A DNA stretch of 23,039 nt from a virus, in the IMG/VR virus record IMGVR_UViG_3300030090_000244, positions 1 to 23,039 of that record; one strand, given 5' to 3'. Below, piece after piece: positions 5,130 to 23,039 of this stretch. The translations under genes were made by a program, and so were the position numbers. The number at the start of each line of letters is the position of its first letter. Within the stretch, counting starts at the first letter, position 1. The notes under the pieces are model-generated. The model saw nothing but the letters and a program-made list of their open reading frames with translations, did not search any database and was not told the origin of the DNA.

Positions 5130-6086
5130 TTAATATAACAGGTCTGCGAGAGGATTAGTGGTGTCTTGTGCAACTTCTTCAACTGGCACACGTTGGTCTA
5201 TCAAATTACCATATTCTTCATGCAACTCACATCCGATATAATCTCTACCTAAATGCTTTGCAACCATAGCAGTAGTTCCTGATCCCATGAATGGATCAAG
5301 AATTATATCTCCCTTCTCACTCCCTGCCAGTATGCAAGGTGTAATTAAGTCAGGTGGAAAAACAGCGAAGTGACTTCCCTTGAATGGTTTATTTGTTACC
5401 GACCAAACATCACGTTTATTTTTCCTGTCATAAGACTTGGATAAACCACTATGAGGAGATAACCCACTGCCACTATTATGGTACTTACCCTTAGTGCGAT
5501 CTCTTGTCCCCCAATCTTGCTTAACTGGTTCTTTGATTGCTTCATTGTCATAATAATACTTTTTGTTTTTAGATAATAAAAATATGTACTCATGTGATTT
5601 AGTACATCTATCCCTTACCGATTCTGGCATTGGATTAGGTTTATGCCAGATAATATCCTGACGTAGATACCATCCGTCCGATCTCATTGCAAATGCAAAC
5701 ATCCAAGGGATGCCAATTAAATCTTTTTCTTTTAATCCATCTAATTTATTACCACGTTTATTACATTGAGTTGGTAGGTCTTGATTAGTTTTAGATACTG
5801 ATTGTTTAGGATATGATTGACCTTTTCCTGGTCTATAATTATAATAACTATCTCCTAAGTTAACCCATAGAGTACCATCATCAGTTAATACATTTCTAAC
5901 TTCTTTGAATACACTTACCAGTTGATCTATAAACTCTTCTGGTGTATTCTCTTGTCCTATTTGATTCTCCTCTCCTCCATAGTCTCTTAATCCGTAGTAT
6001 GGTGGCGAAGTCACACAAGTTCTTGCCTGTTCATCAAATTGTTTGAGAGTGTCTCTGCAATCTCCGTATAAAATTGTGTTTCTCAT
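5130..6086 (-). CDS. Beta-class DNA methyltransferase (TSPPY type)
   Basis: S-adenosylmethionine-dependent amino-methyltransferase (N4-cytosine or N6-adenine). The catalytic motif IV TSPPYYGL (26-33) precedes the AdoMet-binding motif I LDPFMGSGTT (263-272), the order that defines the beta class; GDSYY and a DIIWHKPNPMPES stretch are also typical of this family. TSPPY is common in N4-cytosine enzymes, DPPY in adenine enzymes, so cytosine is slightly favoured. At 318 residues it is a complete stand-alone enzyme with a variable target-recognition region between about 85 and 240. It overlaps the upstream dam-like gene by ATGA. Its likely role is phage DNA self-modification against host restriction, or part of a modification system with the nuclease two genes upstream. 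Confidence 0.92.
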   Translation of the reverse strand: MRNTILYGDCRDTLKQFDEQARTCVTSPPYYGLRDYGGEENQIGQENTPEEFIDQLVSVFKEVRNVLTDDGTLWVNLGDSYYNYRPGKGQSYPKQSVSKTNQDLPTQCNKRGNKLDGLKEKDLIGIPWMFAFAMRSDGWYLRQDIIWHKPNPMPESVRDRCTKSHEYIFLLSKNKKYYYDNEAIKEPVKQDWGTRDRTKGKYHNSGSGLSPHSGLSKSYDRKNKRDVWSVTNKPFKGSHFAVFPPDLITPCILAGSEKGDIILDPFMGSGTTAMVAKHLGRDYIGCELHEEYGNLIDQRVPVEEVAQDTTNPLADLLY

Positions 6087-6982
6087 TGTTTAATAATTAG
6101 AATTTCATGTGACTCTTTTTTATTATGCTCTACTCCTCTTTCTTTCTTATATTTACCTACTCTTGTCTCTCCTGCTTGATATGAGTAATGCCACTTAGGA
6201 TATACTAATTTAAAATCTTTATAGTATTCTCTAATAGTTTCGCAATCGTTGTATGAGAGTATAAATGTTCCTTTGTGACTATGTAATAAGTCTCTTAATA
6301 GTTCATGATTAAATCCTGTATGATGTACATCTATATTGCAATTAGGATACATACCTTTTAACATTTTATTATCTTTATCCTTCTCCAAATAATATGGTGG
6401 GTCAAGATATAGTAATTCATTGGGATTATTTGTTATTACATCTTCAAAAGATGCTTTCTCTATATGTAAACAATTATTCTTGTAACCCTTGATATAGTGG
6501 GTCATTCTGTCCCATTTAGTTTGACTCTGATATATCTTACTCATCCATCCTAAGTACATTGGACCGTATGATAAATTATGATTAAAGTAATAATATGCTG
6601 CTGCATCTATGTTACTTAATTGTATAGATTGTCTCTTATAATAGTCAGTATGCCAATCTTTTAACATGTCCTGAGTATAATCCCATTGCAATAATATCTC
6701 TTTGATTTCATTATACTTTTCTTTAGTTGGTTCTAACTCTTGTAATCTATTTGCCAACTCAATAGGATTGTCTAATAACACTTGCCAAAAATTAACAAGT
6801 GCATCAAATATATCATATCCATAGACAGGTATATTGAGTTCACTTGACCATCTAGACTCAAGACTACCTCCACCAACAAAGGGAGATATTATTTTACTAG
6901 GATATGGTAGTATTGGGAGATAATCAGTAATAATTTTATATGCCTTCGACTTTCCCCCTGCATAACGTATGGGTGTTTTCAT
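6083..6982 (-). CDS. dam: Dam-type (D12 class) N6-adenine DNA methyltransferase
   Basis: Transfers a methyl group from AdoMet to adenine in DNA. Motif I region IRYAGGKSK (5-13) and SPFVGGGSLE (33-42), and catalytic motif IV YLDPPYYLE (192-200), have the order and spacing of the D12/alpha class (T4 Dam, E. coli Dam). At 299 residues it is slightly longer than T4 Dam. The recognition site cannot be deduced; GATC is usual for the family but not certain. It is coupled by ATGA on both sides: upstream to the GIY-YIG-like gene and downstream to the TSPPY methyltransferase, so all three should be made together from the promoter at 7529-7558. Confidence 0.92.
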   Translation of the reverse strand: MKTPIRYAGGKSKAYKIITDYLPILPYPSKIISPFVGGGSLESRWSSELNIPVYGYDIFDALVNFWQVLLDNPIELANRLQELEPTKEKYNEIKEILLQWDYTQDMLKDWHTDYYKRQSIQLSNIDAAAYYYFNHNLSYGPMYLGWMSKIYQSQTKWDRMTHYIKGYKNNCLHIEKASFEDVITNNPNELLYLDPPYYLEKDKDNKMLKGMYPNCNIDVHHTGFNHELLRDLLHSHKGTFILSYNDCETIREYYKDFKLVYPKWHYSYQAGETRVGKYKKERGVEHNKKESHEILIIKQ

Positions 6983-7895: not shown

Positions 7896-8564
7896 CTATT
7901 CAATTTCTAAATCTATATTAAATGCTACACTTATTCTTTCCTCGTCAGTTGTATTCGGGCAAGTATTGTGCATTAACCATGATGGGAATAATATAATCTC
8001 TCCATCACAAGGAATAAACTCCATACTCTGAGGGCAAGTATTAGTATTCTCTGGAAAATTACATGATTGTATTATATTATTAGGATTCAAGAATTGAATA
8101 CCACCTTGATCTGGACTCACTCTCATATAATATACACCTGATACTTGATATCCAGGATGACAATGCCACTCATGATTCTTATCTTTACCTTGAATATTCA
8201 TCCATGAGTTTTTTATATTGATTCTCCATTTACGTCCATGTAATCTACTCCACATTGTAGATGTAACATAGTTAGTTGCTGTGTCTATGATTCTTTGTTT
8301 AAGATTGATTAGATTGTATTTACCAATTAAATCATCTTTGATAAGATACATTGAATCAGTTTGTTTTCTTGACTTTTGTTCTCTTGCTATTGGATGAATG
8401 TATGATACTTCAGCATAATCATTGTCTGCCTGTATCTTCATGAGTGCTGACTTTACTTCCTTTTGTATTGGGTGGTAATTGTCAGGTCTAGGTAGGTCTT
8501 TGTATATTAAAGTCGGGAATATTGGCATTGTACCCGAATATGCCTGTACATTTACTTCATTCAT
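7896..8564 (-). CDS. 2OG-Fe(II) oxygenase family protein
   Basis: Predicted non-haem iron, 2-oxoglutarate-dependent dioxygenase, 222 residues. The double-stranded beta-helix core is visible as WHCHPG (133-138), VSGVYYM (141-147), GGIQF (154-158), GEIILFPSWLMHN (188-200) and ERISVAFNI (209-217): candidate iron ligands His134 or His136 and His199, with Arg210 for 2-oxoglutarate. The first motif reads HXH rather than the usual HXD, as in the cyanophage-rich 2OG-FeII_Oxy_5-type group. Substrate unknown; roles in T4-like cyanophages are not established. Overlaps the upstream 66-residue gene as ATGA. Confidence 0.82.
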   Translation of the reverse strand: MNEVNVQAYSGTMPIFPTLIYKDLPRPDNYHPIQKEVKSALMKIQADNDYAEVSYIHPIAREQKSRKQTDSMYLIKDDLIGKYNLINLKQRIIDTATNYVTSTMWSRLHGRKWRINIKNSWMNIQGKDKNHEWHCHPGYQVSGVYYMRVSPDQGGIQFLNPNNIIQSCNFPENTNTCPQSMEFIPCDGEIILFPSWLMHNTCPNTTDEERISVAFNIDLEIE

Positions 8565-8885: not shown

Positions 8886-9063
8886 AACCAAATCCTCCAT
8901 TTTGGAATTGACGTTCTTCCTCCACTTCTACTCTAAGTTTCCTTAAAGCAAGTTTGAGTTTATGCAGTTCCTCGCTATCATATAGCATAGGGTCTTGCTC
9001 ACTCTTTTTGAGTGCATGTTTTAAAAGTCTGATTTGACCTTTTGAACTGAAGAACTTTTTCAT
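8863..9063 (-). CDS. Hypothetical basic helical protein (66 aa)
   Basis: ATG at 9063 is joined to the upstream stop (TAATG). The sequence MKKFFSSKGQIRLLKHALKK and then the helix (LHKLKLALRKLRVEVEEERQ) is Lys/Arg/Glu-rich and almost surely a helical hairpin or coiled coil. Family not recognised. Its 3' end contains the ribosome site of the next gene. Confidence 0.7.
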   Translation of the reverse strand: MKKFFSSKGQIRLLKHALKKSEQDPMLYDSEELHKLKLALRKLRVEVEEERQFQNGGFGYEEKKLP

Positions 9064-9716
9064 TATAGTAAATCCATGTCTTTTCCTGGTCGATTAGTAG
9101 ACACCTCTTCTACTGGCACAGGTGCTATTGTGAAGTTTGCACTAAATGTAATGCGTGTATTAGTTCCCTTATATGGTGTAACTAAGTGTAGGTAATGTGA
9201 TGGGAACATTAAAACATCACCAGTTTTCACCTTTGGTATTGTTAGTTGCTCATCAGGTGTATTTAATACTTCATCAATACCTAATAATTTAATTGTTGAA
9301 TGTTCTCTGTTATAGAATCGGAAACCTACGTCATCATCATCTATATCATAGAAATAAACCATGCTGATATTGGTTCTCATGCTATCACTATGGTCATGTA
9401 CCTCTTGATAGTCTCCTATATCATATTTGTTTGCCCAACTATTGTCCATGATGATGTCAACATCACATTTTGTACCAACAACTTCAACAAATCTATCCAT
9501 AGTTGGTTTGAGATTCTTTAACCATGAGTGCCAAAGTTCCTTTGTATTATTCTCTCGTCCCCACGAGGATTTAACATTGCAACTCCAACCTCTAGGTTGT
9601 CCAAAGTTGTCATCATTATTTACGAAGTCACTAAACAATTCTCTGGTCTTTTGTTGATCTTCTATTGAAAGTTGATCGTGAAAGAACCATTTAGGACTAA
9701 ACACTTGTATTGTCAT
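9063..9716 (-). CDS. 2OG-Fe(II) oxygenase family protein
   Basis: Second predicted dioxygenase, 217 residues. Core features: DYQEVHDHSD (102-111) giving candidate ligands His107 and His109, VYFYD (120-124), GFRFYN (131-136), then GDVLMFPSHYLHLVTP (166-181) with His177, and TRITFSANF (187-195) with Arg188 as the 2-oxoglutarate anchor. Like the protein at 7896-8564, it has an HXH in place of HXD, but overall sequence is very different, so this is not a recent duplication. The substrate cannot be told; a soluble cytoplasmic enzyme is expected. Overlaps the downstream gene (TAATG) and the upstream gene (ATGA). Confidence 0.82.
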   Translation of the reverse strand: MTIQVFSPKWFFHDQLSIEDQQKTRELFSDFVNNDDNFGQPRGWSCNVKSSWGRENNTKELWHSWLKNLKPTMDRFVEVVGTKCDVDIIMDNSWANKYDIGDYQEVHDHSDSMRTNISMVYFYDIDDDDVGFRFYNREHSTIKLLGIDEVLNTPDEQLTIPKVKTGDVLMFPSHYLHLVTPYKGTNTRITFSANFTIAPVPVEEVSTNRPGKDMDLL

Positions 9717-11159: not shown

Positions 11160-11855
11160 TTAATACCTCGTAAAACTATTAGTTGAGAAGTTAGTGTTGT
11201 CTATCTCCCAGACTTCCATAACTGCGTTGTTCCATCCGTTTCTTCTGTAGTCGTCACCAATACCAGAATTAACACGATAGTTAACATCATTATGTCTATC
11301 CATGTATATCCTATACTTATGGTTCTGTGTATTGTTTACTACAGGTACATAAGCAAAGAATTGTCCAACAACATACCAATCGGATAATCCGTTAACATAA
11401 TGTGAGTGTGAACCCATGTCAAGGATTCTACTCCATCCTCCATTATTTACGTTTCTGTATAGACCAAATCCAAATCCGTCAGGGTTTGAAGGACCACCTG
11501 AGTCATCTGTCACAGTCCACCAGTAAACTCTATGCCAGTTATTTGATCCTGCGGGTACTCCACAATCTACCTCAGTACCATTAATATATGTCATATTACT
11601 GGTGCTAGTACCTCTTCTACTACTAATAGTTTGGTTTACTGTAGTACCACCATGTGCCCATACTTTTATGATATTCTGTTGATTAGTTGCAGGTGCCCAC
11701 GCACTTCCTGTCCATGTCAGAGATTGATTAGTACCAGGTGTACCTGACACGTTGGTCATGTCCTCTAGTGACCTGTTCGCTGAAGTTGAACTCGTTGAGT
11801 CTCCTGTATAATTTATTGTCGCTGCATTTACAGTTCCAACGTTGAGTTGAGACAT
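11160..11855 (-). CDS. Short tail-fibre-like protein (231 aa)
   Basis: Begins MSQLNVGTVNAATINYTGDS, the shared adaptor start of the fibre genes in this window, followed by a Ser/Thr/Gly-rich linker and SLTWTGSAWAPA. The rest (about 60-231) is a Trp/Tyr/Asn-rich beta domain with WHRVYWWTVTDDSGGPSNPD and NGGWSRILDMGSHSHY; no catalytic motif. It lacks the RP.SP..G..RYN hinge seen in its paralogues. A late promoter lies 26 nt upstream of the ATG. Probably a host-surface-binding fibre or its tip. Confidence 0.7.
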   Translation of the reverse strand: MSQLNVGTVNAATINYTGDSTSSTSANRSLEDMTNVSGTPGTNQSLTWTGSAWAPATNQQNIIKVWAHGGTTVNQTISSRRGTSTSNMTYINGTEVDCGVPAGSNNWHRVYWWTVTDDSGGPSNPDGFGFGLYRNVNNGGWSRILDMGSHSHYVNGLSDWYVVGQFFAYVPVVNNTQNHKYRIYMDRHNDVNYRVNSGIGDDYRRNGWNNAVMEVWEIDNTNFSTNSFTRY

Positions 11856-11880: not shown

Positions 11881-11888
11881 TATTTATA
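11881..11888 (-). promoter_or_regulatory. T4-type late promoter TATAAATA
   Basis: Perfect TATAAATA on the minus strand, 26 nt before the ATG at 11855, within the 28-nt gap between the permease and fibre genes. Its TAA is the stop codon of the permease gene (11886-11884). In T4-like phages such sites are read by the late sigma factor gp55. Confidence 0.85.
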
Positions 11889-12921
11889 TTAAAAATGTCG
11901 TTATCCAAGCATATCCTATTAACCATGCACATAATCCACCAAGTACCTTGTAATACTTTCTTATAGGTGTACCAAAGTATTGTTGTCCTATCATTAAACA
12001 CTTGTGTGCAGGGGATAATAAGTATCCTGAGTATTCTGTTGCCAAGAACCATACAAGATATTGAGGACCAAATATTATTACAAGTGCTGAGGTCATTCCT
12101 GCGTATTTACCTGATGACCCCATAATCCATGCTGCTATTGTAGCAACTATTGATACTGGTATAATCATAGTTGGATTTGCTGCTGATAGATATGCCATTA
12201 CAGGTGCTTTGATGAGTCCTACCACACCACCAAGTGCTAATACTATCGTTGCAATAATAGCAAACTTACCATCAAGAAACTGACCCCAGTTCCAATCCTT
12301 ACAAATATAAGCATAATAACAACACATTACTGCGAACCAAGGAAAGAAAAATATTGCTCCTGCTTTACCTACACACAATAAAAACCAAATCGTTGCTATA
12401 AATGGTGCCCAACCTCTTAATGCTCTCTGCCAATCAAAGTCTTGTATTCCATCCATGTTAGGTAATACACTTCGGGGATCCACCTTACTAAAAATATACC
12501 ACCATGTGTACGTCAAACATATTACAAGTGGTATGAATGTATATGATAGCATCTGTCCATAAGTTATACCTAACGCTGCCATAGGTAATATGATAGTCTT
12601 TTCTAATGGACTCCACCAATAGTAGTGATGTGTAGATAGATAATCAATAATACCAAATGCACTCCTCTTCTTCTTATCAGGTGGTGCTATAGCATCTAAT
12701 AATGGTGCTGATAATGCAACTCTACCTGGTATTGGTAGCACTCCACCAAATATAGAGGTGATAATTATCATCACCCTATTGTCTTTAATATATCTCTTTG
12801 CAAGTGAGTAAACATCATTGAGTACATTATACTTACGAATGTATCCTCCCAGTATCATGATACCAAAGATATAACCCATGTAGAGTTCTTTCTGTAAGAT
12901 TGATAATAGTATTTCAAGCAT
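11884..12921 (-). CDS. DUF401-like integral membrane permease
   Basis: A 345-residue polytopic membrane protein with roughly nine to eleven hydrophobic segments by eye (for example 14-28, 50-75, 108-145, 172-206, 221-240, 250-268, 279-300, 325-345). The segments GGVLPIPGRVALSAPLLDAI (59-78) and YSGYLLSPAHKCLMIGQQYF (297-316) resemble the conserved G..P.PG...SAP and G...SP.H.C......YF signatures of the DUF401 family, predicted gluconate/organic-anion-type transporters in the ion-transporter superfamily. Length is slightly short for the family. It overlaps the 2OG-oxygenase gene by 8 nt and its stop is inside a late promoter, so it is within the structural gene cluster. Transport substrate unknown; family call from memory of motifs. 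Confidence 0.7.
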   Translation of the reverse strand: MLEILLSILQKELYMGYIFGIMILGGYIRKYNVLNDVYSLAKRYIKDNRVMIIITSIFGGVLPIPGRVALSAPLLDAIAPPDKKKRSAFGIIDYLSTHHYYWWSPLEKTIILPMAALGITYGQMLSYTFIPLVICLTYTWWYIFSKVDPRSVLPNMDGIQDFDWQRALRGWAPFIATIWFLLCVGKAGAIFFFPWFAVMCCYYAYICKDWNWGQFLDGKFAIIATIVLALGGVVGLIKAPVMAYLSAANPTMIIPVSIVATIAAWIMGSSGKYAGMTSALVIIFGPQYLVWFLATEYSGYLLSPAHKCLMIGQQYFGTPIRKYYKVLGGLCAWLIGYAWITTFLI

Positions 12922-13423
12922 AGTTAAAGTTAACCACTAAACGATAGTCTGAGTCAGATGTAGATGTACCTGTGTGCTCAGTATGATTTGGAAATGTCAC
13001 AAATCTATTGGCAACAGACTCTATGATAGTACCATCTTCAAATTTTGTATATCCATTGTTAGTATTCATATAAAGAATAGATGTTTTCATATGATCTTTG
13101 ATAGGATGATACTCTGAGTCTGTGACATCATGATGAAAACCATGTTCTATAATAGCATTTTGATTAGGCATCATGTTTGCCTTGATTTTAAAGATAGCAA
13201 TGGGTTGTATGATCTGTAATACAGGTTGTAATATATTTACACTTTCATCTACAGGAGAGTATCTCTCATAAAATAGATGAGTGAATTGAAAATTATTATT
13301 TCTATTCTGTTCAGTATCATTTACAATTTTAGATGTGTACCAAGGAAAATTCCATGACATCAATTCTGCGTGTACTCTCTCGAACTCCCTGAGTGGTAGA
13401 AAATTATCTTTTATGTCTATCAT
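12914..13423 (-). CDS. 2OG-Fe(II) oxygenase family protein
   Basis: The ATG at 13423 (MIDIKDNFLPLREFERVHAE) is chosen for its ATGA overlap; a start at 13459 would extend 12 residues into the upstream gene. The 169-residue protein has HGFHHDVTD (94-102) with a canonical HXD (His97, Asp99), TSILYMNTNNGYTKF (114-128), FVTFPNHTEHTG (141-152) with His147/His150, and YRLVVNFNY (160-168) with Arg161. Compared with the two oxygenases at lower coordinates it has the classical HXD...H...R set and a compact prolyl-hydroxylase-like size. Its late-cluster neighbours (permease and methyltransferase fusion) suggest a modification role, possibly of a fibre or a small molecule; this is inference. Confidence 0.8.
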   Translation of the reverse strand: MIDIKDNFLPLREFERVHAELMSWNFPWYTSKIVNDTEQNRNNNFQFTHLFYERYSPVDESVNILQPVLQIIQPIAIFKIKANMMPNQNAIIEHGFHHDVTDSEYHPIKDHMKTSILYMNTNNGYTKFEDGTIIESVANRFVTFPNHTEHTGTSTSDSDYRLVVNFNYA

Positions 13424-15138
13424 TTTGATATTACCATTATATGTAATCCATTCCACCAACTTTTATCATCCTCTGCTATCTCTGTCCTGAGTGTCTTTTC
13501 AAATACTACTTCTTTATCCTCTTGAAACTTCTTAGCATTGTCCACTACACCATTGAAGTTAGCATCATCTATGATTAAAATGTAATTATCTTTTGCCTGT
13601 TCATGTAGGTGTTCTAAGTTTGCAACCATATTATCACCCACTTCACCATCATAAAAGATAACGTCAGGTCTATACTCTTTGTTAGGCAACCATTGTAATA
13701 CAGGTTTGACACAAAATCCTACTGAAGTATCAAGATTCATCCATTTGTCTGCGTTCTTGACCATTTCATCTATAGGATTCTCTACATCAAATTTGTTTCC
13801 TAAATCTTTTTTCTTTGGTTTAACAACTCCATCACTATAATCATCTATAGCATATGCGTTGACAGCACTATTCTTATACAATGCTGCAAATAATGTGCTA
13901 CCCATGTAGCAACCAACGTCAGCATATACTGTGCCACGTTCTGAACATAGATTATTTAATAGGTGTCTGACTTTATCAGATGATAATCCTAAAACATCAT
14001 ATCCCTCTGGATTAAACCTGGAATTGTTATCCGTTGCTGCGTCAATCGCTCGGATCACACGATCCACATAAGGATTCATAGTACGTTTCTCCTTCTTCAG
14101 TACAGATTCTACCACAGATTCACAATAGTTGCAATCCCAACAATCAAATCTGCAACTTTTAATTTTGTTTCGCCATATATTTATGGGTGCATCTTTGATC
14201 TTCACATCAGTTAAATATCTATCAAATTCTGGATATAATATATCTTTACCTTCATCCCAACGTTGTATTAAGTCTAGTGACTCTACAAGTCTGGTTGCTG
14301 ACTCTCTACCATGTAACTTAAATACATCTATGACATCTAAAAACTCCTCCCAATCCTCTCTCCAAGGCGGTAGGTTTGCTTCTTTTAATGAAAATGCAGG
14401 GTCATACTGATCCCAACGTGAACAAGATACTCTACTAATATCACTATCAAAATACTGAGGGTCACTATCTTTTCTTGTACTATTATAATGATAATGCTCT
14501 GGCATAATCGGGCATCCACCCCAACAATGCTCATTTGCCAAGAGTGATAGCATTACTGGATTACCTTTCTCTGCACAATATTCTTTTGCTTGTTTGAGTC
14601 TATCTAAGAGTGGTCTGTCTCTCATCACATCACGATCAAGATTGATGTAATAAAAACCTGCACTAGCAAGTGATACTATCTCATTAGGTTTTGATACCTC
14701 TCTGAGTATAGTATTCTTAATTTTTAATTCTGGATATTCTTTCTGTATCTGTCCTGTCATTACCCATGATGTATGGGGAATGGTTGCAGTTCTTACACCA
14801 TTATCATATAAAAATTTAAAGTTGGTGATAAATTCCTCAAGATTTTTTTGATCTGGTTTCACCCATATATTATTAAATGTCGCTGATAATGGTAGTCCTG
14901 TCTTATCTCTGATATAAAATGCGTTCTTTACTGCTGCCTGTGCATCACTTGTACCACGAAATACATCACCCATTGCATCTTGCATGAATGGTGGCATCCT
15001 CGTAGTAAAATATAAATCGTATATTAAATGCTTATGTTTGTTTAGAAATGGTATTATCTTACCATCAATATACTCAGGTTCTATCTTCGGGTTTATCGGA
15101 AGGGAGAATAGATCTTCCTGTGACATTGTTATGTGCAT
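13420..15138 (-). CDS. TIM-barrel/Cys-cluster protein fused to a class I methyltransferase
   Basis: 572 residues with two parts. N-terminal (about 20-345): repeated alpha/beta units (NGVRTATIPHTSWVMTG, NEIVSLASAGFYYINLDRD, GNPVMLSLLANEHCWGGCP) and cysteines 205, 209, 239, 329, 333, 336 and 339 (CX3C and CX3CX2CX2C), reminiscent of U32-peptidase/UbiU-type TIM barrels that hold an Fe-S cluster. C-terminal (about 355-572): AdoMet-binding motif TVYADVGCYMGSTLFAAL (403-420), acidic strand end AIDDYSDG and YILIIDDANFNG, resembling TylF/methyltransferase-24 enzymes. It overlaps the upstream coiled-coil gene by 65 nt; a second ATG at 15126 (MSQEDLF) is possible, but AGGAGT lies about 12 nt before the first. 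The linkage suggests hydroxylation/methylation chemistry; substrate unknown. Confidence 0.6.
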   Translation of the reverse strand: MHITMSQEDLFSLPINPKIEPEYIDGKIIPFLNKHKHLIYDLYFTTRMPPFMQDAMGDVFRGTSDAQAAVKNAFYIRDKTGLPLSATFNNIWVKPDQKNLEEFITNFKFLYDNGVRTATIPHTSWVMTGQIQKEYPELKIKNTILREVSKPNEIVSLASAGFYYINLDRDVMRDRPLLDRLKQAKEYCAEKGNPVMLSLLANEHCWGGCPIMPEHYHYNSTRKDSDPQYFDSDISRVSCSRWDQYDPAFSLKEANLPPWREDWEEFLDVIDVFKLHGRESATRLVESLDLIQRWDEGKDILYPEFDRYLTDVKIKDAPINIWRNKIKSCRFDCWDCNYCESVVESVLKKEKRTMNPYVDRVIRAIDAATDNNSRFNPEGYDVLGLSSDKVRHLLNNLCSERGTVYADVGCYMGSTLFAALYKNSAVNAYAIDDYSDGVVKPKKKDLGNKFDVENPIDEMVKNADKWMNLDTSVGFCVKPVLQWLPNKEYRPDVIFYDGEVGDNMVANLEHLHEQAKDNYILIIDDANFNGVVDNAKKFQEDKEVVFEKTLRTEIAEDDKSWWNGLHIMVISK

Positions 15139-15985: not shown

Positions 15986-16682
15986 CCTGTGTGCACCTTC
16001 CGTAATCTAAACATTGTTCGCTTGTCATTGACTCTCCAAAGTAATCTTCTAAGAAAACTACAACTTCCATCACATTTGCAGATGATTTTAGTTTGGTAAT
16101 CAATGTTTGTTCTTGAACTGCAAGGTCATAGACTTTAGTTTTCCATGCGTCTTGCTTTTCAATCACTATAGCAGCAAAGTCTGCGGTTGTCAATCCTCTA
16201 ACCTCTGCTAATCTATGTATCAGTTTTGTCTCAAAGGAATTATCAGCAATATATGCGGTTGCCTCACATAACTGATCTGTCCATGTTTCTCTCTCTAATC
16301 CTCCCCATGAATCATATAGAGTTGAGTATCTCTCTTCAAATATCTCCTGTATTTTTAATGTTATCACCCCTATCATGAAAGGTTTAACATACTTAGTACC
16401 AAGTGTAGAGTCAACTTCTACCTTTTCTTTTAAAGTTGTACCACTATCATCTACACCATACTCTGATTTCATGTTTCGAGTCTCACCCCATAGTCTCATA
16501 CCATAGGTTGCTGTATCGTAATCAAATCTTAGATAATGAACATGAGGTGGTATGTACTGAAAATGTGTATCTTCAAGTTCATAATATTCTAGGTTCATCC
16601 ATGAACCACACTTTGTACCTACAGTCGCAATGTGAGGATATTTCTCTTCGTCTATGACGATTATGTCAGGTTTCGTTGCCAT
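15927..16682 (-). CDS. Putative tail-fibre assembly-like protein (251 aa)
   Basis: ATG at 16682 is joined to the fibre stop (TAATG). The first 120 residues form a beta-rich segment (FQYIPPHVHYLRFDYDTATY). Residues 131-207 (RETWTDQLCEATAYIADNSF, then RLAEVRGLTTADFAAIVIEK) follow the W..Q..EA..Y......T..I...A..RG.....A..V pattern common to phage fibre-assembly or DUF4376-type domains. Two Cys near the end (CLDYGRC). Directly following a fibre gene in the transcript fits a dedicated assembly chaperone, but no activity is proven. Confidence 0.6.
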   Translation of the reverse strand: MATKPDIIVIDEEKYPHIATVGTKCGSWMNLEYYELEDTHFQYIPPHVHYLRFDYDTATYGMRLWGETRNMKSEYGVDDSGTTLKEKVEVDSTLGTKYVKPFMIGVITLKIQEIFEERYSTLYDSWGGLERETWTDQLCEATAYIADNSFETKLIHRLAEVRGLTTADFAAIVIEKQDAWKTKVYDLAVQEQTLITKLKSSANVMEVVVFLEDYFGESMTSEQCLDYGRCTQDDTTGLISRKSEVKYGIQF

Positions 16683-18073
16683 TAGTAATTAGGAATAGTT
16701 GTACCATAATTGTACCTTACAGTACCATCTGTTTCAGTACCAGATATTGCACTTGATGATGAGCAGTGTGCTGAACTCATACCAGAGTGACCTGAAGGTG
16801 GTGATGATCCACCAAGATTATTATATGAATCAGTTGCATAGTTCACCTTAAAGGTGTTATTGTTCTGTTGTCCGTTGTAATTACCTAAACAATATCCTTT
16901 TCTCATTCCCATTTCAAAGTTCTCTTCACCCATGTTTCCAAAGTTAAGACCTCTAACCTGTATGCCTGTGGTATCATCACACTTCTGATTACCATTTTGA
17001 TTATTATTACCAGTTCCAACGTACATGTGACCGATCATAGTAGGAAGTATTTTCTTCCATCCATCACCACCTGGTCCGTGGTTCCATGATGTCCATGATT
17101 CGTTTGCCCATCTAAATCCTGCTCTTGAACCTGATCTCTTCCACCATCCCATGAGTCTACCATGTCCTCCCCATGTTGGGTCAGCACCACCATCATTCTG
17201 GTTTGGTGGGAATCCAGAGGTTCTCATGACCTCTGTTGTGAGATTGAATACGTCAGTTCTTGAATTACCACCACCATGTAAGTAAGAATATCCTCCACCA
17301 AATACATGATCTTGGAATGAACCCATAGAACCTCTGTTCACTGTCATATCCCATGAGTTTTGATGAGTTATTCCTGCTTCATTTGTCATACTGAAACCAG
17401 AGGTATATGTTGATGATCCTCTGTATGTGTTCTCCATTGAGTGATAGAAGTGTCTCCTATCATTCCATGATCCAGACATATATGCACCTGATCTGTCTAG
17501 TGTATCTCCTAAGTTTGTTGATGTATCAGTAGCATGAACTGTTCTATTAACGTTTCTCCAAGGTGAACCTGATCTATATCCTCCTCCTACATATCCGTGT
17601 GTCCAAATTCTTGCCATTGACCAATCGGTATCTGTACCATCTAGTGACCAATATGTTGATGTACCATCAGATTTAAGTGAAGCATTGACTGAATAATCAT
17701 CACTATATCTACTTGTGCTTTGTGCGGGTATTCCACCTGCACCTGCTATAGGTCCCCACTCTACTGCGTTTGTTGATTCATTGAGTGCGTACCCCTCGAA
17801 GGTTCGATCGGTACTATTGTAGCGGAACATCCCTTCTACTGGGGATCCTGGTCTTTCATTAGTTGTACCTTTTGGCACTATCATACTATCAGTCGTTGCC
17901 ATATCGACTGATACTCTAGGAGAAGATGTGCCAATACCTACTCTATTATTTGCTGAGTCAATATAAAATGTACCAGAGTCAAAATTAAAATTACCATTAG
18001 ATGCTAACTGAAATTCGGCAGTACTACCACCTCCACTCAAAGATACAATTTTATCAACGTTTAATTGTGACAT
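16682..18073 (-). CDS. Tail-fibre protein with repeat-rich C-terminus (463 aa)
   Basis: Starts MSQLNVDKIVSLSGGGSTAE. Contains VGIGTSSP (45-52) and the hinge IVPKGTTNERPGSPVEGMFR (65-84) followed by YNSTDRTFEGY, as in the paralogous fibres. The remaining 350 residues are rich in Gly, Ser, Asn, Trp and His (GGYRSGSPWRNVNRTVHATD, FGGGYSYLHGGGNSRTDVFN), a repetitive all-beta domain compatible with a propeller or beta-solenoid, of a kind found in T4-like cyanophage fibres. ATG at 18073 has AGGAGT and a late promoter upstream. Probably a receptor-binding fibre. Confidence 0.8.
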   Translation of the reverse strand: MSQLNVDKIVSLSGGGSTAEFQLASNGNFNFDSGTFYIDSANNRVGIGTSSPRVSVDMATTDSMIVPKGTTNERPGSPVEGMFRYNSTDRTFEGYALNESTNAVEWGPIAGAGGIPAQSTSRYSDDYSVNASLKSDGTSTYWSLDGTDTDWSMARIWTHGYVGGGYRSGSPWRNVNRTVHATDTSTNLGDTLDRSGAYMSGSWNDRRHFYHSMENTYRGSSTYTSGFSMTNEAGITHQNSWDMTVNRGSMGSFQDHVFGGGYSYLHGGGNSRTDVFNLTTEVMRTSGFPPNQNDGGADPTWGGHGRLMGWWKRSGSRAGFRWANESWTSWNHGPGGDGWKKILPTMIGHMYVGTGNNNQNGNQKCDDTTGIQVRGLNFGNMGEENFEMGMRKGYCLGNYNGQQNNNTFKVNYATDSYNNLGGSSPPSGHSGMSSAHCSSSSAISGTETDGTVRYNYGTTIPNY

Positions 18074-18096
18074 TTCAGTAATTTACTCCTTCGTAT

Positions 18097-18104
18097 TATT
18101 TATC
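18097..18104 (-). promoter_or_regulatory. Late promoter variant GATAAATA
   Basis: GATAAATA on the minus strand (7 of 8 to TATAAATA), 24 nt before the ATG at 18073, overlapping the TGA stop of the upstream fibre gene (18105-18103). An AGGAGT ribosome site follows at 18090-18085. The same stop-over-promoter layout occurs at 11881-11888. Confidence 0.65.
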
Positions 18105-19125
18105 AGATAGCGAATGTATCTTTATAGTAATTGTATATTGTTATCTGTTCTGCTGTAGTGATATGCCTACCATAGTGCATAAAGACAGGGAATGAACCAC
18201 AATTCTGTGATGTATTATGAGGATCTCTACTACTATTACCCCATGCACCTATGTGGTGGAATCCTCTATTGAATCTACTATTACTACTATTGATAGTAGC
18301 TCTTGGGGTTGTCTCATCATTAAAGTAACATTGATAGTTTGGAGAGTATTGTCCAGACTCATATGAAGATAATCTCCATGTGTACATATTGAATTTACTA
18401 TCCCAGTTAGGGAACTGGTCAATATCATATCCAGTATCATTAAATCCTGTAGCATCATTATCATACATACCAAGATTTCTTGTACCAGATTGTACAATAA
18501 TATGGTGGTCACTAGCTCTTGATCTTAATGGTGTTCTCCATTGATCATTACTGGTTCTCCATTTTAAGAAGAATATAACAGTTAGATGAGGATAGTAAGG
18601 TGAATCTGTATAGTTACCCTGTGAAACTAATTTAGCACAACCAGAACCATTAACAGAGAAATCCATATATTTAACTACCTGCCCATTGATAGACTCTTGA
18701 GCATATCTATCTGTAGGTATAGCAGCATGAAAGTTATTTCCACTTATATCATACCAGTAGTTTGCATCCTGATCATTTGCATTAGGCATCAATGATCTTG
18801 GATTGTTTGCATCATACCATATTACTAAGTTCTTTCTAACTATATCAGCACTACTCGTAGCAGTTGCACCTGCGTCAGATGCCATCAAGTTAATCCAATC
18901 AGTACCATTATATCCTTCTACAGTTTCTAGTGTGCTATTATAACGTATCATACCTGCGGTTGGTGATGCAGGTCTTTGTCCTGTAGTTCCTACTGGTAAT
19001 ACTAAACCAGAATCAATGTCAGCAGTATAACTACCATTGACTAACAAGTTTGCACTAGAAGGCATCTGAATCTCAAAGTTGTGATCCGAATTACCTATTA
19101 ATCTGTTTACTCTTACTGTACTCAT
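18103..19125 (-). CDS. Tail-fibre protein with LamG/concanavalin-like domain (340 aa)
   Basis: ATG at 19125 (MSTVRVNRLIGNSDHNFEIQ) is chosen for its ATGA overlap; the longer frame to 19212 only overprints the previous gene. Hinge LVLPVGTTGQRPASPTAGMI (41-60) and RYNSTLETVEGYNGTDWINL (61-80). From about 97, NLVIWYDANNPRSL, YWYDISGNNFHAA and the end HHIGAWGN with HYGRHITTAEQITIYNYYKD match the laminin G/concanavalin A-like lectin pattern (W.D.sgN..H ... YnR.Lt..Ei...Y). Expected to bind cell-surface glycan as a virion fibre. Late gene. Confidence 0.82.
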   Translation of the reverse strand: MSTVRVNRLIGNSDHNFEIQMPSSANLLVNGSYTADIDSGLVLPVGTTGQRPASPTAGMIRYNSTLETVEGYNGTDWINLMASDAGATATSSADIVRKNLVIWYDANNPRSLMPNANDQDANYWYDISGNNFHAAIPTDRYAQESINGQVVKYMDFSVNGSGCAKLVSQGNYTDSPYYPHLTVIFFLKWRTSNDQWRTPLRSRASDHHIIVQSGTRNLGMYDNDATGFNDTGYDIDQFPNWDSKFNMYTWRLSSYESGQYSPNYQCYFNDETTPRATINSSNSRFNRGFHHIGAWGNSSRDPHNTSQNCGSFPVFMHYGRHITTAEQITIYNYYKDTFAI

Positions 19126-20165
19126 CTTACAAAGAAATAACCTGGATGACCTTGACCACCTGCGGGACCTGAACCATAGATACCTGCTGAAGCAGTACCA
19201 GTATAACCCCACAGAACTCTATTGTTACCATAACGAGATGTTTGATAGTTTGATGGGTTTGAGTGGTAATCAAAGACTTTATAATTGTTATTATATAATC
19301 TAATATGCTCCCATCCGCCAGGTTGCTCCCAGTTGTAGGGATATACATGAGAGACTCTAAAGTTTCCTTCTCGTCTGTCACCCTGACGACCATCCCCACC
19401 AGTATTTAAGTTACTATAGTATTGAATACCACCACGATATTTAACAAATGAAGCATAATTCCACCTGTCTCCACTAACTGTACCACCATTATAAGTGTCA
19501 TAAGGACCGCCTGGTGGTTGTGTATTATCCTTTGCTAGTCTAACATTTATAACTTCATCACCACCATTACGTGCTTCAGCGACTGCTCTGATAAACACAT
19601 CATCATATTTACTACCAGTTGTTGAACTATAACCAGTACCAGATACAGGAACATATGATGCTGATACACCACCAACTGTCCGAGTGTATAAGTTTGATGC
19701 TTCAAAAGTTCCATAATGATTAGTTGATGATGATCCTGCAGTCATAACCAACACCCATCCACCATCATAATTATCACAATCCACATAACAATAGGTTGGT
19801 GTTTCATAACCTATTGGTTGTATCCAATAATAACCAGAGGGTCTATTGGCAAGTTTGATTTGTATTCCGTTAGCAGCAGGACTTGTATAATCTCCTACTG
19901 TTGCACCACCTGCTCCTGCAGCACCTAGACTTTTCCATAACACACCAGTATAAATTTCAAAAGAATTAGTGCCAGTATTAAATCTTGTGTCACCAATCGT
20001 AGGACTAGCAGGTCTTTCTGCTGTAGTTCCTGTTGGTAATTGATGTGCCTCAGTTGAACTGAATTTTAATTTTCCTTCGACATTAAGAGTATGACCAGGA
20101 GATACTGTGACCTGACCTAGTGTTTGTGCTATTCCTGCTAACTTACTGACTTGTACTTGACTCAT
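19122..20165 (-). CDS. Tail-fibre protein with fibrinogen-like C-terminal domain (347 aa)
   Basis: Starts MSQVQVSKLAGIAQTLGQVT; hinge QLPTGTTAERPASPTIGDTR (42-61) and FNTGTNSFEIYTGVLWKSLG. From about 100: NRPSGYYWIQPIG, TYCYVDCDNYDGGWVLVM (124-141; Cys126, Cys130 and the GGW core) are the hallmarks of fibrinogen-related/intelectin-like lectin domains, ending in Gly/Tyr-rich repeats. Such domains usually bind acetylated sugars, here presumably on the host surface. No Shine-Dalgarno; 4 nt from the upstream stop, so translation is probably coupled. Confidence 0.82.
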   Translation of the reverse strand: MSQVQVSKLAGIAQTLGQVTVSPGHTLNVEGKLKFSSTEAHQLPTGTTAERPASPTIGDTRFNTGTNSFEIYTGVLWKSLGAAGAGGATVGDYTSPAANGIQIKLANRPSGYYWIQPIGYETPTYCYVDCDNYDGGWVLVMTAGSSSTNHYGTFEASNLYTRTVGGVSASYVPVSGTGYSSTTGSKYDDVFIRAVAEARNGGDEVINVRLAKDNTQPPGGPYDTYNGGTVSGDRWNYASFVKYRGGIQYYSNLNTGGDGRQGDRREGNFRVSHVYPYNWEQPGGWEHIRLYNNNYKVFDYHSNPSNYQTSRYGNNRVLWGYTGTASAGIYGSGPAGGQGHPGYFFVR

Positions 20166-20169
20166 ATTA

Positions 20170-21579
20170 CTATGTATTATCGAATGTTACAGGGTACATT
20201 GCCCAACCACCTCTAGTTCCATAAGAGGGATATGATAGTGCAGATGAATTAATATCCATCAATTCTAACATATACCAACGATACCCATACACGTTGGTAA
20301 AACTTTGTGATCTCTGTGATCCCTCACCACCAGAACCTTGTCCACCAAAGTGAAGTCTTGCAATATATGTCCATTGTGTTCCTGTTTCCGTGAAGTTGGT
20401 GCGGTTTATATCTTGATTAGATCCCCAGACATTTACATTACCAATAGCATTTGTATGTTTATACCATCTAACTCTATTGATTACTTGTCCGAAAGGATAT
20501 GCAGTAACTTTAACTGCAAGATACTGGGGCCAAGCAACATTACCAGGACTACTATGTCCTGTATGAAATGCAAAGTCATTACTGCTTGTTGATGAAACAT
20601 ACTCTAAGAATGAACGTGTATTAGGTGTTGAACTTAAAGTTTCATCACCAGTAGTACCATCATTATATCTAAGTCCTTCAAATAATATTTCATTCTCCGT
20701 TCCTGTTATTGCATTATGTGCTGTATCTCTTGCTCCCTCTGCTACTGTAAATCCTCCACCATTACCAAAGGAACCCACTGCTCCTCCTGTGTTTGATGAT
20801 CCTGCTTGATCTACAAAATCATTACCTTTATATAATCTTAAATTTGTAGTCTGAGCATTGTATTGTATGCTTCCTGTCTCTCTTGAATTTGCATCATGCT
20901 TTGGTGTATCAGCACCTTGAACAAAATCACCAACTGATAATCCTAATTCTAATTGTGCACCATCCCACCATAAATTTCCACTACTAGAACCAGTAGGTCC
21001 GTTCATTCTGACACATACACCTGTTGTATTACTATTACTAAACGTTGCACTTCTTGAAACTCTCTGCCATGATGTTGTTACACCAAAAGTAGATGTATGA
21101 AAATTAGTATAATTACCTGCGTCATCTACCTCAAAAATGTATATCATACAATTACTCAAGGATCTATCTCCCTTGACATATACACTAAATGTCCATTGCT
21201 GTCCATTTCTAGCAGGTGTTACAATATAATCAGTACCATTATTATATGAATAGGTATAGGCATCATTACCAGATAATGCCATCTTCAGTGCTACACCACC
21301 TACAGGTGAATCTGAATTACCACCAGTTTCTCTACTTAATGTACATCTAACACCATCTTCAAATCCTTTAGTTCCTCCTCCACCAGTATATGCTGTAAAT
21401 AAATCTAAAGGGTAGAATTTATGGGCGAGAAAATTTTTTGAATTACCTACAGGTATTGCTTGCCATTTCTGTTGTGTTAAACGTAGTTGACCTGCAGGTG
21501 CTAACGTTGAGTCCTTATCAACAGTGATTTTAAAATCTGGACTATTGCCTTGTAGATTTGCTACGTTTAATTGTGCCAT
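20170..21579 (-). CDS. Tail-fibre protein with carbohydrate-binding-like domains (469 aa)
   Basis: Starts MAQLNVANLQGNSPDFKITV. Residues about 50-230 (TFSVYVKGDRSLSNCMIYIF, SWQRVSRSATFSNSNTTGVC, NLWWDGAQLELGLSVGDFVQ) match the jelly-roll carbohydrate-binding module pattern (CBM4/9-like). It is followed by a hinge-like RETGSIQYNAQTTNLRLYKG, and a second beta domain at the C-terminus (INRVRWYKHTNAIGNVNVWG, VYGYRWYMLELMDINSS) resembling a discoidin/F5-8-type fold. Two binding modules separated by a hinge suggest a multi-tip fibre. TAATG coupling upstream. Confidence 0.75.
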   Translation of the reverse strand: MAQLNVANLQGNSPDFKITVDKDSTLAPAGQLRLTQQKWQAIPVGNSKNFLAHKFYPLDLFTAYTGGGGTKGFEDGVRCTLSRETGGNSDSPVGGVALKMALSGNDAYTYSYNNGTDYIVTPARNGQQWTFSVYVKGDRSLSNCMIYIFEVDDAGNYTNFHTSTFGVTTSWQRVSRSATFSNSNTTGVCVRMNGPTGSSSGNLWWDGAQLELGLSVGDFVQGADTPKHDANSRETGSIQYNAQTTNLRLYKGNDFVDQAGSSNTGGAVGSFGNGGGFTVAEGARDTAHNAITGTENEILFEGLRYNDGTTGDETLSSTPNTRSFLEYVSSTSSNDFAFHTGHSSPGNVAWPQYLAVKVTAYPFGQVINRVRWYKHTNAIGNVNVWGSNQDINRTNFTETGTQWTYIARLHFGGQGSGGEGSQRSQSFTNVYGYRWYMLELMDINSSALSYPSYGTRGGWAMYPVTFDNT

Positions 21580-21995
21580 TATCTAACACTCCATGCACCA
21601 CCACTCTCAACTGTTACTGTGTATCCTGTTGCAATCGTTATTGGACCTGCACTCATTCCGTTGGCAAACTCTGCACCTGCTGTAGGTCCTACTGTTATAT
21701 TTTCTGCTATCGTTGTCGGGTTAGTACGAATTATACTATCAGTTCCTAGTGATGGTCCTCCACCTGCCAATGGTGCCCAACCTGCACTTCCTGTACCATC
21801 ATCTGCCTTGTATATTTCAGCAGAGTCAGTATCAGAGTTGAAACGCATAGTACCAACCGAGACACCAGTAGGTCTTTGTGCCTGAGTACCTGAGGGTAGT
21901 CTAAACACTGAGTTAGTGTTTAAGAAACTTAAGGTTGTTATAATTGCACTTGTTGAAGTAGAAATCTGGTTTCCACTAATTCTTGAAATAGCCAT
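21579..21995 (-). CDS. Short fibre/adaptor protein (138 aa)
   Basis: Starts MAISRISGNQISTSTSAIIT and has the hinge FRLPSGTQAQRPTGVSVGTM then RFNSDTDSAEIYKADDGTGS, as in the longer fibre proteins, then a Thr/Gly-rich beta tail (TIAENITVGPTAGAEFANGM, TIATGYTVTVESGGAWSVR). It is an adaptor plus hinge without a large lectin domain, so it may be a spacer or a trimmed fibre. It is linked to the next gene by TAATG and lies 4 nt from the large virion protein upstream. Confidence 0.75.
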   Translation of the reverse strand: MAISRISGNQISTSTSAIITTLSFLNTNSVFRLPSGTQAQRPTGVSVGTMRFNSDTDSAEIYKADDGTGSAGWAPLAGGGPSLGTDSIIRTNPTTIAENITVGPTAGAEFANGMSAGPITIATGYTVTVESGGAWSVR

Positions 21996-21999
21996 GAGA

Positions 22000-23039
22000 T
22001 TAGATAGGTAGTTCTAAGATGTGAATAGTATCAGTTGATAATGGTGCATCCCCAGATGAGAATACAACGTTAGCACCATTTGAATCGACTGTATAATTTT
22101 GTCCTGCGATTTGTGCTACACCATTAAGGAATACCAATAGTGAATCATCAGAGTGTTTGATACCACCGCCATACGTAGTAACAGCGAAGGTTAAAGTTGT
22201 ACCATCACCTGTATAGAACTTAGTAATATATTTGTCTGATCCAACAACACCTCGACCAGTACCAACTACGTCACCATCAATCCTAACAGAACCATTTATT
22301 CTTACTCTATATGTTGCATCAGGTGATTCCCCTAAACCTATATGTCCATTACCTGTGGTAGATATATTAATATCTCCTGTATCTGTTAGTCCAAACTCTT
22401 TCCATACTGCACCATAGTATATCCAACCTAGTGATTTACCTGGTGTCCAGTTGATATTGTAAACTATATCTCCATCAGCAGGTGTATCATATCCTGTGAT
22501 ATTAGAAAAATCTGGTAGTCCACTTGCGTTTTCTGGTGCTAGTAGAGTCTGTTTAATAACAGTACCATCTTGGTTGAAGTATGTAAGTTTCTTAGCAGAT
22601 ATATTATTAGTGAATGTACTCTGTCCTTGGAATGTGACAGGACCTGCAAAGATAGATTCTAACTGGTTTGATGCTCCACCAATAACAGTTATCTTGTCCG
22701 TTAGAACCAACTCAGAGAATGTTTCAATGGTTGTGTTCTCTTCACCAACAACGTTTAACTGTGCAACATCTTCGTTAGTGATCTGACCTGTGACTGGGTT
22801 GATAACCTGATTACCAATGAATAGGTCACCGTTAGAGTTAAGTCCAGAGTAGAATGAAACTCCTCCTTCTTCTTTAATTGACTGTGAGAATCTAATTTGC
22901 TCTTGAGTTAGAGTTTCTACCTGTGTTTGAGGGAACGCTGTACTATAGTTACCTGGACCAAAACCAAGGTATTCAAACGTATGGTTTCCTGATCTTAGGA
23001 TAGAGTGTCGTCTAAACTCTACGTTAATCGGTGCTACTG
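22000..23039 (-). CDS. C-terminal part of large virion structural/fibre protein, N-terminus beyond window
   Basis: The frame stays open from its TAA at 22000-22002 to the right edge without a stop; the internal TTG at 22710 is not the start. The visible 346 residues begin VAPINVEFRRHSILRSGNHT, followed by FEYLGFGPGNYSTAFPQTQV and KEEGGVSFYSGLNSNGDLFI, segments typical of large virion structural proteins of T4-like cyanophages (base-plate/fibre type). The C-terminal half has GGASNQLESIFAGPVTFQGQ, a fibre hinge-like DTPADGDIVYNINW, and beta-repeats ending TDTIHILELPI. Probably the proximal fibre to which the paralogous adaptors attach; this is inference. Confidence 0.8.
   Translation of the reverse strand, partial: VAPINVEFRRHSILRSGNHTFEYLGFGPGNYSTAFPQTQVETLTQEQIRFSQSIKEEGGVSFYSGLNSNGDLFIGNQVINPVTGQITNEDVAQLNVVGEENTTIETFSELVLTDKITVIGGASNQLESIFAGPVTFQGQSTFTNNISAKKLTYFNQDGTVIKQTLLAPENASGLPDFSNITGYDTPADGDIVYNINWTPGKSLGWIYYGAVWKEFGLTDTGDINISTTGNGHIGLGESPDATYRVRINGSVRIDGDVVGTGRGVVGSDKYITKFYTGDGTTLTFAVTTYGGGIKHSDDSLLVFLNGVAQIAGQNYTVDSNGANVVFSSGDAPLSTDTIHILELPI

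Follow-up and report, generated by a model that had tools for sequence, protein, structure and literature searches.

The DUF401 family (COG1906/arCOG04354/TIGR00529/PF04165) is a known and little-studied group of bacterial and archaeal proteins, whose members under arCOG04354, COG1906 and PF04165 have been predicted to be possible carboxylate transporters on the basis of their similarity to GntP and DctM (PMC5898192). On the viral side, pstS, hli and petE are among the auxiliary genes compiled in a review on cyanophages, in which we found no such carrier under transporter or permease (PMC10452541). We found no paper on DUF401 in phages among open-licence publications, in agreement with the original prediction, which knew of no described role for the family in phages, and as far as we could find its viral use is apparently undescribed in the searchable literature. 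Known cyanophage auxiliary genes mostly alter intracellular metabolism, and to our knowledge genes for whole membrane carriers are uncommon among them. The novelty reported here is a clipped, phage-borne and mobile version of a known family of putative transporters.

The DNA analyzed (the window) is a viral contig of 23,039 bases that carries a DUF401 gene at positions 11884-12921 on the minus strand, with an ATG at 12921, a stop codon at 11884-11886 and a product of 345 amino acids. This product scores 44 bits against the PF04165 profile, above the gathering cut-off of 24 (E = 2.5e-11), and the corresponding proteins of S-CAM4, S-H25 and metaG-MbCM1 likewise exceed that cut-off. Its match to TIGR00529 (AF0261; E = 3.6e-12) reaches 46.3 bits, far under the equivalog cut-off of 378.4, which places it outside that equivalog. 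The match to PHROG 14035 extends over residues 1-344 of 345 (E = 4.9e-180), making the protein a full-length member of a family that PHROG labels "unknown function" and to which we add a predicted fold, a range, an estimate of selection and a genomic context. Together with a strongly polytopic hydropathy profile, these results identify an intact polytopic membrane protein of the DUF401 family, bearing out the original prediction of a whole polytopic DUF401-like permease.

The phage and cellular proteins differ in the length of the N-terminus. A profile-profile alignment joins the two groups over 326 columns (probability 100, E = 7e-40, ∼17% identity) and pairs phage residue 2 with cellular residue 51, from which point onward the order of helices is the same. 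The ∼50 N-terminal residues of cellular DUF401, comprising two predicted helices that are usual in the family although not demanded by the Pfam cut-off, are absent from all fetched viral versions, and the reading frame upstream of the viral start is open for only 0-27 codons in these copies. The patterns G.L..PG....S.P in the first hairpin and G...SP.H.C in the second half are common to both groups, whereas R67 and the loops HHYYWWSPLEK and MGSSGK are specific to the phage proteins. A search of predicted viral structures returned a single clear match, the DUF401 family protein of the Ralstonia jumbo phage RP12 (A0A1L7N0V7; E = 4.5e-15, 27% identity), which at 346 amino acids shows the same reduced length. 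RP12 belongs to the Chimalliviridae, a phage family unrelated to cyanophages. This equal shortness may reflect either shared ancestry or convergent shortening.

An AlphaFold2 model of the 345-residue protein (mean pLDDT 78, pTM 0.77) superposes nearly end to end on carriers of the DASS/SLC13 group. In comparisons with VIA-align, in which small differences in Z count as ties, the plant chloroplast dicarboxylate transporter AtDiT1 aligned over 340 of the 345 residues (Z 23.8, rmsd 4.0), followed by LaINDY (23.3), NaDC1 (22.6), Pho90 (22.4) and NaS1 (22.3), with remoter carriers scoring much lower (TRAP membrane subunits ∼15, AbgT-type 12.7, nucleoside carriers of the CNT type 9 or less). The phage protein is therefore predicted to adopt an IT/DASS-type (SLC13-like) elevator fold, being similar to it along the whole chain and well above unrelated structures. 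We base this prediction on VIA-align and homology because Foldseek by itself was marginal (best E 1.1e-3, with none below 1e-3); sequence searches of solved structures with the single protein and with a profile returned nothing meaningful. In contrast to its fold, the phage sequence has no significant match to DASS/SLC13 carriers, its N-terminus is shorter and it lacks their SNT signature, the predicted tips reading PIPGR and MGSSG instead. Because SNT is absent we do not class the protein as a DASS member, nor can its substrate be read from that group.

Helix breaks in the model suggest the placement of two hairpin tips and two unwound loops, one pair in each half of the protein. The predicted first hairpin tip is LPIPGR (residues 62-67; 12721-12738, minus strand), which is invariant in 49 viral representatives, each below 97% identity, and whose L..PG is common to cellular DUF401. 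The presumed unwound loop of repeat 1, HHYYWWSPLEK (residues 98-108; 12598-12630, minus strand), is also invariant in the viral copies, and the likely second tip, MGSSGK (residues 267-272; 12106-12123, minus strand), is invariant except for residue 271. The corresponding loop of repeat 2 would be GYLLSPAHKC (residues 299-308; 11998-12027, minus strand), whose SPxHxC is common to cellular DUF401. Nearly all residues of these four loops are invariant in the viral set, in which 165 of the 345 positions are invariant overall, and by analogy with DASS carriers the loops may form a binding site. An internal repeat was detected when the halves of cellular DUF401 were aligned together (probability 88, E = 3e-6), and the viral halves alone, in a shallow alignment, did not pair with each other (probability 0.6); we take a repeat in the viral protein to be likely by homology with its cellular relatives. 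The missing N-terminal residues could weaken carrier function. The predicted transport core is retained in all fetched viral versions.

We consider it probable, with considerable room for other readings, that this DUF401 gene belongs to the mobile auxiliary genes carried by cyanomyophages (T4-like phages that infect marine Synechococcus and its relatives) and encodes a shortened secondary carrier of the DASS/IT elevator type that most likely handles a small carboxylate. The protein would probably insert into a host membrane during infection and, in its shortened form, likely dimerize on the remaining scaffold helices, while a transport domain built of two inverted hairpin repeats slides and so carries its substrate across, with coupling to Na+ or H+. 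This substrate would be a small organic anion, with a di- or monocarboxylate the likeliest. The result would be altered carbon or 2-oxoglutarate pools in the infected cell, which would match the talC, glutaredoxin, cpeT, hli and psbA genes of these phages; a tie to their many 2-oxoglutarate-dependent oxygenases is offered purely as an idea. A carboxylate is favored because the published family prediction (PMC5898192) and the fold both point to it. Of the functions originally suggested, import of organic acids or ions among them, the organic acid is best supported and inorganic anions become a rival reading. If the gene does encode a conserved mobile carrier, the virus would control a traffic of small anions between infected cyanobacteria and sea water or from one compartment to another, and infection might in this way be tied to dissolved organic matter. 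A further extension, which we hold to be less likely than not and more doubtful than the carrier itself, is that the gene stands for a class of auxiliary gene new to cyanophages. Its product would be an elevator carrier pared down by the loss of two scaffold helices, would import or export a carboxylate (2-oxoglutarate or malate, for example) during infection and would exist in clipped form in unrelated phage lineages, the cyanophages and the Ralstonia jumbo phages. The presence of this compact DUF401 member in the cultured phages S-CAM4 and S-H25 makes its function directly testable.

The structural matches include carriers of sulfate (NaS1) and phosphate (Pho90) with the same fold (Z 22.3-22.4), and the phage protein might accordingly be a secondary transporter for an inorganic or other anion, such as sulfate, phosphate or an amino acid, that supplies a nutrient required for phage replication. 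Further genes connected with phosphate, such as pstS and phoH, are present in cyanophages (PMC10452541), and in Peptoclostridium a cellular DUF401 gene adjoins peptidases and an amino-acid transporter. However, the published profile comparison ties the family to carboxylate carriers (PMC5898192), and the highest structural score belongs to a dicarboxylate carrier, even though Z differences of this size are ties. We judge a noncarboxylate substrate rather unlikely. The auxiliary-gene neighbors of phage DUF401 point to no specific substrate.

Loss of the two N-terminal helices would also be compatible with a membrane effector that transports nothing and instead acts in superinfection exclusion, in changing the membrane potential or as a step towards lysis, and the S-CAM4 copy lies ∼1.5 kb downstream of an endolysin gene. 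This we find improbable, given that the predicted binding loops are invariant in both halves, that the recurrent direct neighbors are not lysis genes and that the protein is far larger than known holins. The earlier suggestion that it alters the membrane before lysis thus finds no support, because invariant loops of a predicted binding site are not needed for lysis.

Relatives of the probable carrier are rare among isolated phages. Proteins 72-79% identical were found by tblastn in nine public records, all of Synechococcus phages, namely the myophages metaG-MbCM1, S-CAM4, ACG-2014j and S-H25, and a search of phages at E values up to 10 returned these nine cyanophage records and nothing beyond them. 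By comparison, a talC relative occurs in 485 phage records, a count that includes some noncyanophages. The metaG-MbCM1 copy is annotated merely as "hypothetical protein Glov_0511". At least 275 IMG/VR contigs contain a relative, the S-CAM4 branch having been added by a second query.

The viral copies are under strong purifying selection. None of 151 nontruncated copies is broken, and the median dN/dS among unsaturated pairs of the 49 representatives is 0.096 (maximum 0.22), which, at 70-100% identity across the 151 copies, shows that conservation of the reading frame is not due to chance. Intact, selected, phage-borne, belonging to a cellular family and lying outside the phage core, the gene qualifies as an auxiliary metabolic gene.

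Genes adjacent to the viral DUF401 copies were grouped into clusters and identified through sequence families. Contexts that have flanking genes in common, six to seven at first, were treated as three regions, which keeps mobility from being overstated. Of 148 placed copies, with labels that are approximate for short contigs, 53 share the window's location in the tail-fiber/neck region. Another 66 occupy a region of auxiliary genes (talC, glutaredoxin, a Phd-like gene, cpeT, hli or psbA), and the remaining 29 adjoin uvsX-gp41-mazG. These three labels require 13 changes on the maximum-likelihood protein tree (minimum possible 2, shuffled mean 28), several of the changes being forced by well-supported branches, and we therefore conclude that the gene moves between sites or that the sites recombine. 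The placement amid tail-fiber-like genes described initially is correct for the window, with such a gene 28 bases downstream (PHROG 8195; 11160-11855, minus strand) and others upstream (16682-23037). It is nevertheless incidental and the gene stands outside the tail-fiber machinery, since 95 of the 148 placed copies are found in the two other regions; for the same reason the proposed cooperation with the neighboring oxygenase and methyltransferase fusion is unsupported. The changing positions might suggest a chance-acquired host gene or an assembly artefact that is functionless in the phage, but this is highly improbable given its recurrence in four named phages and hundreds of contigs from many metagenomes and is contradicted by the absence of broken fetched copies and the low dN/dS.

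The start of the DUF401 gene sits within the last codons of an upstream gene assigned to PHROG 274 (12914-13459, minus strand; 8-nt overlap), and in most viral copies the start overlaps or abuts the gene upstream. PHROG 274 is labeled "DNA endonuclease V"; the product of 12914-13459 contains an HxD...H...R pattern and on this motif resembles a 2OG-Fe(II) oxygenase, in which case the label may be wrong. The nearby fusion gene (PHROG 1458; 13420-15138, minus strand) has no Pfam match above cut-off, and from sequence features its N-terminal ANEHCWGGCP recalls the Fe-S cysteines of U32/UbiV-like proteins and its C-terminal part appears methyltransferase-like. Two more 2OG-Fe(II) oxygenases (PF13759) are encoded <5 kb from the transporter, at 7896-8564 and 9063-9716, and two adjoining DNA-methyltransferase-like genes at 5130-6982, all on the minus strand. 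At the other end of the DUF401 gene, the T4-type late-promoter-like sequence TATAAATA (11881-11888, minus strand) overlaps the stop codon and lies upstream of the next, tail-fiber-like gene. Its single exact copy in the whole window compares with 3.5 expected by chance and is thus not above chance; (T/C)ATAAATA occurs near the end of the gene in 43 of 150 relatives.

In other cyanophage contigs, a glutaredoxin gene (PF00462; 4363-4611 of contig L028, L046 and others) regularly adjoins talC and DUF401. Many copies are preceded by a gene for a cyanophage outer-membrane-like beta-barrel (PF24653). An ORF near DUF401 and cpeT in one cyanophage contig (L072:769-1935) begins with a flavin-binding-like GAGTAGLLTA that recalls flavin-dependent halogenases.

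Among cells, a scan of 84,980 genomes with the viral alignment, using two peptide patterns only, revealed no close relative of the phage proteins. The scan of the genome collection with a cellular DUF401 query matched a single Atribacterota genome, and a query from that genome found DUF401 in 29 of 50 genomes of the phylum. The recurrent neighbors of these Atribacterota genes pointed to no substrate. In ∼18 of the genomes (L165-L183) the cellular DUF401 gene follows an Asp23/Gls24-like ORF and an ORF for a small membrane protein.
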